Translations under genes and position numbers: made by a program
The notes under the pieces: generated by a model
The model's input: only the letters and a program-made list of their open reading frames with translations
Told to the model about the DNA's origin: nothing
The model's database searches: none
NCBI GenBank assembly: GCA_015698285.1
Contig: CP048685.1
Coordinates: forward strand, 3,224,001 to 3,288,000
DNA length: 64,000 bases
Origin: Candidatus Nitronauta litoralis
GTDB lineage: Bacteria > Nitrospinota > Nitrospinia > Nitrospinales > Nitrospinaceae
Direction: 5' to 3'
Part shown: one piece after another, positions 21,797 through 54,669 of the stretch
Position numbering within the stretch: the stretch's first letter is position 1
Layout of the letters: every line of letters begins with the position of its first letter

Positions 21797-23188
21797 TCAG
21801 CCTACCAGGTTATAGCGACGTGCCCGGAACTTTACATCCAGCTTGTCGTGGGAAATTGATTCGCACTTTTCTTCGTCCACCCCAGGTTGATGGGTCACTA
21901 TGCTCGCCTGGACATCCGGAATATGCTCGCGTGCAGATTCGATAAACTTCACTACTTCTTGGTATATGTTCCCCCGAAAATTTGGCAGGGGCTGGACGAT
22001 TTCGTCATAGGCTTCTGAATTGTCCGCATTGAGACTGACGGACACTTCATCAATCAAGCCTGATAATTCCGGAACGATATTGCGTTTGTGGATCACGTTG
22101 CCATGACCGTTGGTGTTAAGCCTTGTGCGTCCACCCATGGATTTTACTTTTTGCGCAATTTCCTTAAGGGCATCGAGCCTTAATGTCGGTTCGCCAAATC
22201 CACAAAACACAACTTCATCATAAGCCGTTGGGTCCCCAATCTCGCCTAAAATTTCACTGGCAGAGGGTTCGCGGTCAAGTGCCAGGTTATAACCCTGCAC
22301 CACGGGTTTAGTGAGGCGTGTGCAGAAAACGCAATTGGCCGTGCAGCGTTGCGTCAGGTTGAGATATAAAGAATTTCGAATTTTATAAGTGATGGTCCCA
22401 GGGTTCGCGGCTTCGCCAATACCAAACAGGTCAAAAAAATTGAGCTCCATGGTCCGTTCAACATCCTGCACCTTCAGGCCTCTGATTTCCGCCAGTAGAT
22501 TTATGGTGTGCTCAACATAGGACGGTTCGTTACGTTTACCACGCTTGGGAACCGGCGCGAGATAGGGACAATCGGTTTCGGCAAACAATCGATCCGCGGG
22601 CACATTTTTGGCCACTTCACGCAATCCTTCCAGCTTTTTGAAGGTGACCGAACCGGAAAAGGAAAGATAGAAGCCCATAGCCAGCGCTGCATCGGCAAGT
22701 TCCTGGTCGCCTGAAAAACAATGAAAAATCCCGGACCGGTTGTCCATATTTTGGGGATAGTATTCCTGCAGGATGCTGATCATGTCTTCCTTTGCATCGC
22801 GGCAATGAATTATGATCGGTTTTTTACATTCCAGGGCAAGTTCGATCTGTTTTCGGAAGTGTTCCCGCTGTTGATCCTGTGGCGAATAGTTTTTGAAATA
22901 ATCCAGGCCTGTTTCCCCCAGTGCGATTACCCTGGGGTGGGATAGCAGATCGCGAAGATGAAGGTAGGTGTCGTTGTCTATAGTCTTGACATCATGCGGA
23001 TGAACACCAGCCGTGGCGAAAATAAAATCGTACATTTCACTAAGTTCCACTGAGCGATAGCTGCTTTCAATATCGCAGCCGACATTCACCATATACTTGA
23101 TGCCAGCTTCGCGGGCACGATCTACAACCGCATCGCGGTCCTCATCAAAAGCGTCCTGGTCGATATGTGCGTGGGTATCAATAATCAT
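21797..23188 (-). CDS. tatD: TatD-family hydrolase fused to a radical-SAM domain
   Basis: 463 residues in two domains. Residues 1-258 are TatD: the metal site THAH (6 and 8), GETGLDYF, IIHCRDA, FHCFSG and AETDCPYLAP are all present, so the metal-dependent DNase/hydrolase should be active. Residues about 265-463 are a radical-SAM domain with CxxxCxxC (CTANCVFC) and a GFGEPTLR glycine motif; it matches the TatD-associated radical-SAM family, usually a separate gene. The fusion joins a nuclease-like enzyme with a SAM-radical enzyme. It follows metG by 6 bases. The substrate of the radical-SAM half is unknown. Confidence 0.88.
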   Translation of the reverse strand: MIIDTHAHIDQDAFDEDRDAVVDRAREAGIKYMVNVGCDIESSYRSVELSEMYDFIFATAGVHPHDVKTIDNDTYLHLRDLLSHPRVIALGETGLDYFKNYSPQDQQREHFRKQIELALECKKPIIIHCRDAKEDMISILQEYYPQNMDNRSGIFHCFSGDQELADAALAMGFYLSFSGSVTFKKLEGLREVAKNVPADRLFAETDCPYLAPVPKRGKRNEPSYVEHTINLLAEIRGLKVQDVERTMELNFFDLFGIGEAANPGTITYKIRNSLYLNLTQRCTANCVFCTRLTKPVVQGYNLALDREPSASEILGEIGDPTAYDEVVFCGFGEPTLRLDALKEIAQKVKSMGGRTRLNTNGHGNVIHKRNIVPELSGLIDEVSVSLNADNSEAYDEIVQPLPNFRGNIYQEVVKFIESAREHIPDVQASIVTHQPGVDEEKCESISHDKLDVKFRARRYNLVG

Positions 23189-48585: not shown

Positions 48586-48837
48586 TGATTTCCCGAAGGA
48601 ATTTTTGACTAAGGATTATAATTCTAGGATAAAACAGGCCACCTTGGAAATAACGGAAAATCATCAAGTTTTTAGTCAGGTTTTTTCGGGTTTTTCGACA
48701 TTTGGGAAAAGGCAATTTCTGGCGACATCGAGTGAAGGAGCTTATATTGGTGGCATGGAATATTTTTGTTCTTATTTAGAAAATGGCTGCTTCGCTTAAA
48801 GTTCAAGATTGAGAAATGGAAATTAAGGGAGCGATTT
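48586..48837. other. Divergent region upstream of the Slp genes
   Basis: About 250 bases between the unknown membrane protein (minus) and the first Slp gene (plus). AT-rich with a TTGACT and a TATAAT but no well-spaced pair. A frame open from 48766 is part of the Slp ORF upstream of its real start. Confidence 0.4.
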
Positions 48838-49398
48838 ATGAAACGTTTCTATTTTGTCCTCATGGTTTTTGGCCTGGCATTTTCAGGTTGTGCTCATCCC
48901 ATATCTTCCGGGCTGAGGTCGCAGGTGGATCCTTCGGTTACATTTGTTCATGTGCTTCAGGCTCCGGAGGCTTATATAGGTAAAACGGTAGTTCTTGGCG
49001 GGGTGATTTCTGAAACCCGCAATCTGGATGGTGTCACCGAAATTGAAGTGGTTGAAAAGGATCTCGACTATTCCGGGTACCCGAGTAGCGCTGATAAATC
49101 ATTAGGCCGGTTTATATTTAGAAAGCCAGGGTATCTGGAAGCAGAGATATTTTCAAAGGGCCGGGTTGTGACAGGTGCTGGCAAGCTGGTTGGAACTCAA
49201 AGAGGAAAAATAGGGGAGGCAGACTATCAATTTCCCGTGGTCGAAGTTGAGGAGCTTAAGCTGTGGAGGGAAAATTTATATCCGGATTATGGTTATCCAC
49301 CGTACTATTATGGTCCCGGATGGAGACCTTTCTGGAGGCCCTATCCCTTTTATGCCTATCGATACTACGGCCGATTTTACCCATACTACTACTGGTAG
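48838..49398 (+). CDS. slp: Slp-family outer-membrane lipoprotein, Tyr-rich end
   Basis: 186 residues from ATG 48838 (AAGGGAG ribosome-binding site upstream). Lipobox LAFSGC with Cys18, then the Slp core (SFATV-like VTFVHVLQAPEAYIGKTVVLGGVI.. GYLEAEIFSKGRVVTGAGKLVG). Slp lipoproteins are induced by starvation or acid in enterobacteria. The C-terminal 40 residues are very Tyr/Pro-rich (YGYPPYYYGPGW, YYGRFYPYYYW), unlike normal Slp proteins. A second Slp gene follows by 6 bases: a tandem duplication. Processed by the lgt/lspA pathway. Confidence 0.85.
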   Translation: MKRFYFVLMVFGLAFSGCAHPISSGLRSQVDPSVTFVHVLQAPEAYIGKTVVLGGVISETRNLDGVTEIEVVEKDLDYSGYPSSADKSLGRFIFRKPGYLEAEIFSKGRVVTGAGKLVGTQRGKIGEADYQFPVVEVEELKLWRENLYPDYGYPPYYYGPGWRPFWRPYPFYAYRYYGRFYPYYYW

Positions 49399-49404
49399 AG
49401 GCTA

Positions 49405-49896
49405 ATGGTTAAATATCTGATAGTGATTGTTACGTTATTGGCTTTGGCAGGCTGCTCATCAGTCCTTTCGGACCGGGTTCTGGAGGCACAGCCTTCTGTT
49501 TCGTTTGCCACAGTGCGGGAAAACCCGGACCAGTCCACGGGAAAACTGGTGGTTGTAGGAGGGAGATTGCTGGGAATTCATCAGGTGGATGGAATTTCTT
49601 ACCTTGAGGTGTTGGAACATCCCCTCGATTCCCGTTTACGTCCTGCAGATGCTGATGTTTCAGCCGGAAGATTCCTCATTCAAATGGCAGGACAGCCGGA
49701 CCCGCAGGTTTGGTCGAGGGACAGACTGGTGACTTTGGCGGGCAAGGTAGTAGGAGTTCAATCAAGAGCTTTGGGGCAAACCTCTTACACTTATCCAATA
49801 TTGAATCTGGAAGAAGTTCATTTATGGCCAATAGAGGATTATTATTATTCGAGGCCGCTATCGACTTTCAGTATAGGCGGAGGTTTGTCGTTTTAA
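49405..49896 (+). CDS. slp: Slp-family outer-membrane lipoprotein, second copy
   Basis: 163 residues. Lipobox LALAGC (Cys17), then the same core as the upstream paralogue (PSVSFATVRENPDQSTGKLVVVGGRLLG.. WSRDRLVTLAGKVVGVQ.. YTYPILNLEEVHLW). It lacks the Tyr-rich tail. Start 6 bases after the first copy, so one transcript. The pair looks like a gene duplication with divergence of the C-terminus. Confidence 0.88.
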   Translation: MVKYLIVIVTLLALAGCSSVLSDRVLEAQPSVSFATVRENPDQSTGKLVVVGGRLLGIHQVDGISYLEVLEHPLDSRLRPADADVSAGRFLIQMAGQPDPQVWSRDRLVTLAGKVVGVQSRALGQTSYTYPILNLEEVHLWPIEDYYYSRPLSTFSIGGGLSF

Positions 49897-52030: not shown

Positions 52031-52363
52031 ATGCCGCGAGAACAAACCGTTTCGGTTGAACAGGTCCGCGAAGCCCAGGAGCTTTTTAAAAACGGGATGG
52101 ACCTGCATCAGGAAAAAAAATTTAAAGAAGCAATTGAGTTGTTTAAGTCCTGTGCATCAGTCAATCCTGAGGATGCCAGTCATCTCGGAGAATTGACTAA
52201 AAAACTGAAATCGGGATCTTATAAGCTTGATCAGGAAAGCATCGCCTATATGGGTTGCTCTGCGGTTCACCTGAACAGTTTAGTAGCGGAGCTTACGGAA
52301 GAGGAAAAGGAAGAGGTCCCAATTGAACAATCCCTTCTGGAAGCTTTTAACAGTTGGCATTGA
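52031..52363 (+). CDS. Small TPR-like helical protein
   Basis: 110 residues. The central region (AQELFKNGMDLHQEKKFKEAIELFKSCASVNPED) is a clear TPR unit, with acidic/basic helices before and after. No signal peptide, so cytosolic. An AGGGAACAGGA stretch before the ATG contains the ribosome-binding site. Unknown partner; a protein-interaction module is expected. Confidence 0.75.
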   Translation: MPREQTVSVEQVREAQELFKNGMDLHQEKKFKEAIELFKSCASVNPEDASHLGELTKKLKSGSYKLDQESIAYMGCSAVHLNSLVAELTEEEKEEVPIEQSLLEAFNSWH

Positions 52364-52790
52364 TTCCCAGGCTAATGTTGCCGGGGGCGCTTGGGGTTTA
52401 AAAGCATAATAATATTTGAAAATTTTACATATAAAATAGGTGGAAACCTATGATTTGGGTACCGAATTCTTTTCGGTTTTATATTTAAATAACAAATGTT
52501 TTGTAAGTGAGAAAATACAATACCAGTTATTTCTATTAACTTCCGACCTCATTGATTCAAGGTAGATTTCTAGTTAAAGAAACTGTCCACCAACCTTGGT
52601 GTGATTTTTGTCTTTTTTCGGCTCCCTGTCTTTGGTTCCTGTAAGAAAGTTACCTTAAAAAACATGATATAGTGTCGTATAATTGATGGGAAAATAATTC
52701 CTCTTTTTAAGGGTAAATTTATTTTCATTTCAGTTAAGATCATCCCGATACTTGAAGTTTGTTTACAGTAAGTAATGCAGGGGAAACGAA
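52364..52790. other. 427-base leader region with tandem hairpins and a promoter
   Basis: AT-rich. Hairpin 1 at 52436-52451 (ATAGGT / ACCTAT with a GGAA loop) and hairpin 2 at 52461-52477 (ACCGAA / TTCGGT, loop TTCTT, followed by TTTATATTT) lie in a row; the second resembles a weak terminator for the TPR gene. A promoter candidate follows at 52655-52683. No ORF is supported. Confidence 0.45.
52655..52683 (+). promoter_or_regulatory. Candidate promoter of the radical-SAM gene
   Basis: TTAAAA (52655-52660), 17-base spacer, TATAAT (52678-52683, perfect -10). About 100 bases upstream of the TTG start. Confidence 0.5.
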
Positions 52791-53993
52791 TTGGATTCTG
52801 AAGTTTTATACAATGTTTTGCGTCAGGAAATAAGAGAAAGAAAAATCCCCATAAGTTTGGGGAAAACCTGCCCTGTCAAGTGTACCTTTTGTTACGAAAA
52901 AGACCACAGCTATCGTCCTACAATTGAAGCTCCAATGACAACCCAGGAGCACTGGGAATTTATCCTCCGCGAAATTCAGAGTTATCCTACCAAAGGAAAC
53001 GAAGCCTGGCTGCTTGGTGGCAACGAATATATGGAATGGACCGATTTGTTTTTGCATCCTAAAGCCATGAACTGGCTGGAAGAGTTTCTGGATACCACAG
53101 ACAAGAAAGTTATTTTTTTTACGGTGGGCTATGCAAAACCCGAAAAAATAGATTATCTGGCAAAAAAATACCCAGGGAGAATAGATTTCGAATTATCGGT
53201 CATCACTTTGGGGGAAGCTCGAAAGAAATTAATGCCACATGCACCATCCGTCCAGCAGGTTCTGCAGCTCATTGATGGCCCTTCGGTGACATCGGCGAAT
53301 TTTTATTCTTTTGGGCCCAATACCATGTCCGCTGATGCGAAGGTCATATCCAGGGTGAACCCGGATTGCGCTCTGTGGATGGGATGCCTCACTCCTTTAA
53401 AATATATTGATGCGGAAACTACCGAAGTGATGCGTGTGGGACGAAGGCATCTTGCGCAAGAAGCAGAAAAAATTTTGGATGCAGATTATCCCAACATGAC
53501 CCAGTTACACACGGAGTCCTACATCACTGCCTGGCTCAATCGAAAAAAAATATTAAAGATGTTTGATGCCTGCGGTCTTGAGAAAAATGACTGGGTAGTG
53601 GTTTCCGGAAATATTTTTCGGCTTCTGACCTTGTTCAGAAAAAACAGGGCGCGCTATCTTTATGTTCCTAATGCAATGCTCGGGGGGGATTCAGATTGTT
53701 CTACTTTACTGACTTTTGAAGATGTAGCCAAACGATTGAACGGGCAAGGGATGGTCTATCTGCCAAAAGTCATTATGGAGCATCCGTCAGGTGGGGATCG
53801 GGATATTGCCGGGACCACATTTGATGAGTTTAAATCCTGGTTTCCGAGAAAACGGTTTCGAATTCTCCACAATGTAAATACTGCAAAATCCAATAAAAAA
53901 CTATATGAAAAAGGTTTCATCAAGAACTATATCGAAGACTATGTAAGAAACCCGCTTTCAAAAAAATTCGAGCAGGTTCCTTTGCCGGCGTAG
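52791..53993 (+). CDS. Radical-SAM protein with DUF512-like C-terminus
   Basis: 400 residues from TTG 52791, with an AGGGGAAA ribosome-binding site 7 bases before. The Fe-S motif CPVKCTFC (C27, C31, C34) lies in the first 40 residues. The C-terminal part (about 285-345: ARYLYVPNAMLGGDSDCSTLLTFEDVAKRL, then VYLPKVIMEHP) resembles the C-terminal region of DUF512 radical-SAM proteins, but the N-terminal PDZ of DUF512 proteins is absent. Three further cysteines (about residues 195-201 and 257) might bind a second cluster. Function unknown; not a B12 or SPASM-type protein by eye. A 63-residue gene follows 48 bases downstream. Confidence 0.8.
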   Translation: MDSEVLYNVLRQEIRERKIPISLGKTCPVKCTFCYEKDHSYRPTIEAPMTTQEHWEFILREIQSYPTKGNEAWLLGGNEYMEWTDLFLHPKAMNWLEEFLDTTDKKVIFFTVGYAKPEKIDYLAKKYPGRIDFELSVITLGEARKKLMPHAPSVQQVLQLIDGPSVTSANFYSFGPNTMSADAKVISRVNPDCALWMGCLTPLKYIDAETTEVMRVGRRHLAQEAEKILDADYPNMTQLHTESYITAWLNRKKILKMFDACGLEKNDWVVVSGNIFRLLTLFRKNRARYLYVPNAMLGGDSDCSTLLTFEDVAKRLNGQGMVYLPKVIMEHPSGGDRDIAGTTFDEFKSWFPRKRFRILHNVNTAKSNKKLYEKGFIKNYIEDYVRNPLSKKFEQVPLPA

Positions 53994-54041
53994 GTCCAGA
54001 AAGCGGGATCTGTAATAAAGAGAAAACTAAAAAGGTGACGT

Positions 54042-54233
54042 ATGGCTTACTGGTTAAAAGTGGTTTTTGTTGACAATAAAGAATTGTTACTTGAAGACAC
54101 GGAGAAGCATTACATTAGCGATGATTTAGAGATGCTGGAGGTTACCACTAACAAAGAGGTGATCATCGTACCAGTCAGGCAGATCAAATACGTTTCATGT
54201 GATGGTAGCGTTTTTCGCCAAATGGAAACCTGA
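54042..54233 (+). CDS. Small protein next to the radical-SAM gene, unknown
   Basis: 63 residues, preceded by AAAGGTGA at proper distance. A beta-rich sequence without signal peptide (LKVVFVDNKELLLEDTEKHYIS.. EMLEVTTNKEVIIVPVRQIKYVS), with one cysteine near the C-terminus. The layout fits a small all-beta fold. Cotranscription with the radical-SAM gene is likely. A RiPP precursor is not supported by the sequence (no leader/core division). Function unknown. Confidence 0.6.
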   Translation: MAYWLKVVFVDNKELLLEDTEKHYISDDLEMLEVTTNKEVIIVPVRQIKYVSCDGSVFRQMET

Positions 54234-54243
54234 GCCAGGTTGA

Positions 54244-54669
54244 CTAAAATTTTAATCGAGCTTTTCTTAACCACTCTTTTTCGTCAAACATTTTGCGGTA
54301 ATACTCTTCAAAGCGCATTTCGTTTTCAGAAAATCCACTTTTTTCAATGTTCTCCCCTAAAATTTCTTCATCATCTGATTCCTTGGACGGTTCCAATTTG
54401 TAGAGGTTTTCAGGATAAGACGGGATTTCCAGAAGGGTCGACAATTCTTCCAGGCTCAAAATAAAGTTGAAATAAGATTCGGGAGTGATCAATCCCTTTT
54501 CCTTCAATTCGGTTAGCAACTTACTGATTTCAGGGGAATTAGATATGGCTTTCATAATGGCATCACTCAGCCGGGAATAGTGTTCTTCCATTGGGTCACC
54601 TTGTTCCATGGTCGGGGTCTCCAGGTTTGGGTTGTTATTGGGTTCCCACAATAAAAAAGCAAAACTCAT
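54244..54669 (-). CDS. Acidic helical protein, unknown
   Basis: 141 residues, mostly helical, with many Glu/Ser/Leu and an acidic C-terminal third (SDDEEILGENIEKS). The TTG- or ATG-initiated N-terminus (MSFAFLLWEPNNNPNLETP) may be 20 residues too long; an internal Met (TMEQGDPMEEHY) is another possible start. No family seen. Convergent with the 63-residue gene. Confidence 0.55.
   Translation of the reverse strand: MSFAFLLWEPNNNPNLETPTMEQGDPMEEHYSRLSDAIMKAISNSPEISKLLTELKEKGLITPESYFNFILSLEELSTLLEIPSYPENLYKLEPSKESDDEEILGENIEKSGFSENEMRFEEYYRKMFDEKEWLRKARLKF

Follow-up and report, generated by a model that had tools for sequence, protein, structure and literature searches.

A gene pair in the window, by which we mean the whole 64,000-nt stretch of DNA analysed here, encodes a 400-aa radical-SAM protein (rSAM; 52791..53993, plus strand, TTG start) and, downstream of it, a 63-aa protein (54042..54233, plus strand). 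With moderate confidence, we take the pair to constitute a cobalamin-dependent radical enzyme, probably a protein or peptide C-methylase, with a dedicated partner of predicted Sm fold serving as adaptor or substrate. The support is computational and comes from homology, predicted fold and the near-obligate pairing of the two genes. The most plausible reading of the rSAM is a class-2 cobalamin-dependent enzyme of the Mmp10/DUF512-like kind that has diverged from the known members and, by analogy with such enzymes, is probably a radical C-methylase.

The radical-SAM protein and its predicted cobalamin domain

The N-terminal part of the rSAM carries the motif CX3CX2C-Y (C27, C31, C34 and Y35; 52869..52895, plus strand), that is, the [4Fe-4S] site and the aromatic residue next to it, and both the cysteines, which place the protein in the radical SAM superfamily, and the tyrosine are invariant in 45/45 relatives. 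The counterpart of the SAM-binding GGE/GGD motif (PMC11659888), positioned by motif only, is a GGNE at residues 76-79 (53016..53027, plus strand) that is likewise invariant (45/45). Profile searches, which the earlier note had proposed, matched Radical_SAM (PF04055) in 39 of the 45 members (best E 3.6e-8), with the window protein on its own giving a weak match below the cut-off, and matched DUF512 (PF04459) over residues about 265-352 in 32 of them at E up to 1 (best E 3e-5), the individually inspected members scoring 12.6-17.1 bits, below the curated cut-off of 25 bits. A DUF512 HMM search of the source genome returned nothing at E up to 10, which shows the extent to which the rSAM has diverged. 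No PDZ profile matched the protein, NCBIfam gave it no assignment, and a PDB sequence search found no match to solved structures. By the Pfam cut-off the rSAM is not a DUF512 member, and it is not Mmp10 either, since the four-Cys iron loop that follows the cluster motif and serves as the criterion for Mmp10 (PMC8828468) is absent from the family; beyond the cluster motif, C303 is the only invariant cysteine in the 45 members and C199 is nearly so. The earlier note's description of a 400-residue radical-SAM protein with a TTG start, an N-terminal CxxxCxxC and a DUF512-like C-terminus without a PDZ domain held up, the DUF512 likeness through weak profile matches and a predicted fold that matches DUF512 enzymes, and so did its placing of the protein in a family without known function, no characterised radical-SAM enzyme having been assigned.

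Relatives were sought by a scan for exact 8-mers of one protein, and among the best 80 matches listed, the rSAM shared 91% and 84% identity with proteins of its own genus, 63-74% with those of other Nitrospinota and 55-59% with those of Nitrospirota. The protein spans these two phyla among the matches listed and is concentrated in their nitrite-oxidiser lineages; a search of plasmid and viral contigs found no relatives. When 83 distinct sequences were aligned, 104 positions were conserved in at least 98% of them, and a single branch of the rSAM tree, with support of 100/100, separates the Nitrospinota from the Nitrospirota sequences. Two entries are placed in that tree against their titles, L018 (titled Nitrospirae) grouping with Nitrospinota and L057 (titled Nitrospinota) grouping with Nitrospirota, and their labels look swapped. 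Among the loci compared, the TTG occurs at the same aligned position in 18, with ATG or GTG in others.

The AlphaFold model built on the family alignment (pLDDT 86.3, pTM 0.82) contains the RS barrel, with Foldseek matches to radical-SAM enzymes, and a C-terminal part (residues about 262-385; 53574..53945, plus strand) predicted to be a four-stranded alpha/beta cobalamin domain, to which the DUF512 match and Foldseek also point. The top five solved structures in Foldseek were four Mmp10 chains and pfDUF512, all of them matching the rSAM from end to end (E 2e-8 to 6e-8); the sixth, SkfB, was matched in the RS part only (E 1e-4). The TM-scores are modest (0.49-0.56) and the rmsd is high (about 9 Å), so the placement of the domains may differ from that in Mmp10 and pfDUF512. 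The modelled C-terminal strands (268-271, 288-291, 321-325 and 355-359), the second of which is followed by a short helix, give the predicted protein the four-stranded domain by which class-2 cobalamin radical-SAM enzymes are recognised (PMC13331322), and Y35 supplies the aromatic residue expected in this class between cluster and corrin. The segment LGGDSDCSTLLT (residues 297-308; 53679..53714, plus strand) holds L306, a candidate for the lower-axial Leu under the corrin in view of the role described in PMC11659888; L306, L307, T308, C303 and D300 are each invariant (45/45), and, counted along the sequence, L306 lies 34 residues beyond residue 272, just as L286 does beyond T252 in pfDUF512. 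Residue 272, which the motif alone assigns as counterpart of the DMB-tail Thr, is Ala in 40 of the 45 members, Ser in 4 and Gly in 1, and position 274 is Ser or Asn. DUF512 is a cobalamin-binding domain: all four DUF512 proteins tested took up cobalamin and converted it to methylcobalamin, with slight release of 5'-dA (PMC11659888). We infer cobalamin binding for the rSAM as well, and it most likely works like, and is related to, the class-2 cobalamin radical-SAM enzymes.

The best structural match, over the full length (E 2.6e-8), is Mmp10, the arginine C-methyltransferase of methyl-coenzyme M reductase (PDB 7QBS), which has CX3CX2C-Y and the domain order in common with the rSAM but shares 11% identity with it and belongs to different organisms. 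The candidate counterpart of Mmp10 Y115, the strictly conserved Tyr that acts as fourth cluster ligand, is position 114, an approximate placement, and is Phe in 24 members and Tyr in 21. The Pyrococcus furiosus protein pfDUF512 (PDB 9CG2; Foldseek E 4.7e-8, TM 0.49/0.54) likewise consists of an RS barrel followed by a C-terminal four-stranded cobalamin domain, without PDZ, and has an aromatic residue after the third Cys; it differs from the rSAM, however, in sequence (13% identity; DUF512 scores of the inspected rSAM members below the cut-off), in its DMB-pocket Thr, which is replaced in the window protein at the motif-assigned position, and in that the window protein has a dedicated partner. 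The same general chemistry is expected of the B12-binding radical-SAM methylases that resemble PhpK or the MCR glutamine methylase MgmA, but these carry their cobalamin domain at the other, N-terminal end, in another fold that is non-homologous there. A review describes Mmp10 as the only characterised cobalamin radical-SAM enzyme with a C-terminal cobalamin domain and treats the question of which reactions DUF512 enzymes catalyse as open (PMC13331322). In the open literature, most subscription papers lying outside the search, no described counterpart of the rSAM/partner system was found.

The 63-aa partner and its co-occurrence with the radical-SAM gene

The downstream ORF, which the earlier note had described as a 63-residue beta-rich partner gene, is conserved (50-89% identity in 24 sequences), with strong conservation at Y3, D11, H23, S26-D27-D28, E30, E33, P44, Q47, K49 and C53, and its product is predicted to form an Sm/YgdR-like five-stranded barrel (pLDDT 91). 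Foldseek relates the model to Sm-type barrels with a probability of 1.0 but with E of 0.01-0.2, and its likeness to the YgdR/DUF903 lipoproteins, to Hfq and to other Sm-fold proteins lies in the small predicted barrel of five strands (TM of 0.54-0.65 when normalised to the partner). Weak Rof matches in 5 of the 24 members add to the Sm-fold likeness, whereas the partner differs from YgdR/DUF903 in having no lipoprotein signal. Sequence searches against Pfam (Hfq, DUF903, Rof) and the PDB returned no significant match for it.

The rSAM is present in 59 of 77 Nitrospinota genomes, where it occurs in nearly all Nitrospinales and in one further family (G461) and is absent from the class's other 12 genomes. 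The earlier note had asked for a survey of gene neighbourhoods and had reckoned with the chance that the partner ORF was not conserved; in that survey, the partner lay directly downstream of the rSAM in 68 of 69 Nitrospinota loci (taken from two overlapping collections, with some genomes counted twice), and the 69th lies at a contig edge. Of 396 sampled Nitrospirota genomes, the rSAM was found in 88 and the partner in 91, with 87 containing the two together; related genomes are not independent in these counts, and for this reason the Fisher P-value for co-occurrence was set aside. The partner stands without the rSAM in G333, G339, G387 and G428 and the rSAM without the partner in G365, and incomplete assembly may explain some of these cases. 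Four Nitrospirota loci (L066, L068, L071 and L076) have the partner directly downstream of the rSAM, and in other Nitrospirota it lies beside proC (so named from sequence), with the rSAM in a separate neighbourhood. As proC is found just upstream of the rSAM-partner pair in L066 and in genome G444, this suggests an old order of proC, rSAM and partner that was broken by relocation of the rSAM. The two genes of G444 read as one 484-aa ORF (L171:818-2272, minus strand) through a recent deletion and frameshift. We rejected this fusion as evidence of interaction, since the deletion, near the 3' end of the rSAM, shifts the frame and the partner has retained a ribosome site and a GTG start of its own.

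The two genes have also been lost together. Full-strength NxrA without the rSAM was found in 45 Nitrospirota genomes, 42 of which have no partner either, and in the 16 rSAM-lacking genomes examined, the neighbours are kept and the rSAM is cleanly missing, the distance between the J-like and PhzF genes being 92-190 nt (15 measurable genomes) as against 1480-1764 nt otherwise. Joint loss of two unlinked genes supports a shared function; however, the rSAM-lacking genomes form one clade in the PhzF tree (100/99), and the loss being a single event, the genome counts overstate the evidence. Co-occurrence of the partner even when unlinked goes beyond the earlier reading, which was made from the sequence, and the 63-aa protein of predicted Sm fold is presumably the dedicated partner of the rSAM, in physical contact with it as adaptor or substrate.

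Proposed chemistry and alternative explanations

By analogy with the class-2 enzymes, the reaction could proceed as follows: (i) a first SAM would be used to form methylcobalamin; (ii) a second SAM would give rise to the 5'-deoxyadenosyl radical; and (iii) the methyl group would be transferred to an unactivated carbon of the target, for which a protein or peptide is the most likely candidate. The partner would then be either a subunit that binds or presents this target or the target itself. The latter possibility, an Sm-fold substrate modified by the rSAM, is a narrower form of the explanation we favour, and the confidence placed in the two overlaps. It is conceivable but doubtful: the strict pairing and the strong conservation of single residues speak for it, as does the precedent of Mmp10, which likewise modifies a protein residue, but conservation of this degree is just as typical of small folded subunits and adaptors, and a precursor-like tail or leader peptide was not seen. 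We consider it unlikely that the C-terminal domain has lost the ability to bind cobalamin, the rSAM being a different kind of radical-SAM enzyme. The DMB-tail Thr is not kept, as judged at a motif-assigned position, and the DUF512 scores are weak, yet an invariant LGGDS-C--LLT segment occupies the place of the corrin-capping helix and the structural match extends over the full length.

The target could also lie outside the realm of proteins, as a small molecule or lipid made or tailored in Nitrospirota together with PhzF and two flanking B12-binding radical-SAM proteins, b12A and b12B, which we regard as quite unlikely. Most Nitrospirota loci that contain the rSAM indeed keep the order b12A, b12B, J-like, rSAM, PhzF, the products of b12A and b12B show a low-scoring resemblance to methylating B12 radical-SAM enzymes, and their homologues occur in Nitrospinota genomes, unlinked to the rSAM. 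On the other hand, these neighbours persist where the rSAM is deleted, the Nitrospinota rSAM is found instead with a TPR-like gene and the partner, and an Sm-fold partner would be odd for small-molecule chemistry. An obligate module of the rSAM with the two B12-binding proteins was unsupported, as b12A and b12B persist in rSAM-less genomes. Very unlikely, finally, is the modification of nitrite oxidoreductase (NXR), in the way that Mmp10 modifies methyl-coenzyme M reductase. An NxrA-like match accompanies the rSAM in 76 of the 88 rSAM-bearing Nitrospirota, and nearly all Nitrospinales have the rSAM; a role as NXR maturase is nevertheless disfavoured because of the 45 NXR-bearing Nitrospirota genomes without the rSAM, the deletion being clean where examined, and linkage of the rSAM to nxr was not seen. 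Some rSAM genomes show no NxrA, which should not be over-read, since MAG assemblies often fail to retain NxrA, fragments of it being seen at the ends of contigs. Strict coupling to NXR was rejected as an obligate link.

Beyond the cobalamin-dependent C-methylase with its predicted Sm-fold partner that we favour, we tentatively raise a further possibility, in which the pair would be a previously undescribed bacterial counterpart of Mmp10, carrying out two-protein cobalamin-dependent protein C-methylation in the Nitrospinales and a large part of the nitrite-oxidiser clade of Nitrospirota and forming one reason for their B12 dependence. Genes for cobalamin synthesis are missing from Nitrospinae, which encode uptake of B12 instead (PMC8026999), and Nitrospira marina must be supplied with the vitamin (PMC8115632). 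If true, the pair would plausibly represent a further B12-using step in nitrite oxidisers, which matters for the vitamin demand of the group. Retention of the rSAM in one set of nitrite oxidisers and its loss in another make its role testable by comparison, and, being bacterial, compact and equipped with a dedicated partner, such an enzyme would offer a handle on the substrate and mechanism of DUF512-type enzymes.

The upstream spacer and the wider neighbourhood

A TPR-like gene (110 aa; 52031..52363, plus strand) is conserved directly upstream of the rSAM in 65 Nitrospinota loci, where it is probably a member of the operon; it was not found at Nitrospirota rSAM loci. In the source genome the two genes are separated by a spacer of 427 nt (52364..52790), in which the earlier note had seen a long structured leader with two tandem hairpins and a promoter. 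The length is exact and the hairpins exist, as two small tandem structures with 6-bp stems (52437..52477, plus strand), the first at 52437-52452 and the second, which is terminator-like and has a T-rich tail after it, at 52461-52477. The promoter fared less well: a sigma-70-like match, TTAAAA-17-TATAAT (10 of 12; 52655..52683, plus strand), is present, but promoter-like sites in the spacer region number 4 vs 3.8 in shuffles, not above chance. The leader found no support, and its conservation, which the earlier note had wished to see checked for the hairpins, was found neither in length nor in sequence. Each of the 64 further Nitrospinota loci that have the TPR-like gene upstream has a spacer of between 6 and 180 nt. 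The spacer of the source genome gave no alignment with close relatives, it folds like its shuffles (z -0.58), an Rfam search found no match, and it occurs once in the source genome, with no repeated element. The 427 nt are peculiar to the source genome and not a conserved leader. A regulatory structured RNA, such as a riboswitch, is hardly credible here: its length, the two small hairpins and the one good promoter match would suit such an element, but length and sequence are unconserved, the folding shows no excess and Rfam is silent. The second hairpin looks like the terminator of the upstream TPR-like gene and, as the promoter-like match lies 3' of it, the rSAM-partner pair may be transcribed on its own in the source genome.

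On the other side of the pair, a convergent gene for a 141-aa protein without a Pfam match (54244-54669, minus strand) is conserved 3' of it in most Nitrospinota loci. The source genome (a single contig of 3.92 Mb) contains two genes that we take to be NxrA, on the basis of sequence and general knowledge of the family, which marks it as a nitrite-oxidiser genome of Nitrospinota. The B12-binding radical-SAM family is present as a tandem pair in Nitrospirota (L059:3642-7527 and equivalents) and as several paralogues in Nitrospinota, those of the source genome lying at G000:C1 8883-10658, 507692-509506 and 699069-700850; it was found in nearly all nitrite-oxidiser genomes tested, and at E 1e-60 no member turned up in 10 further Nitrospirota genomes and 2 further genomes of Nitrospinota. 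Elsewhere in the window, a 463-aa ORF (21797-23188, minus strand) is an apparent fusion of a TatD-type nuclease domain with a following radical-SAM domain (CTANCVFC), and two tandem paralogous lipoprotein genes (48766-49896, plus strand), read by eye, are Slp family-like.
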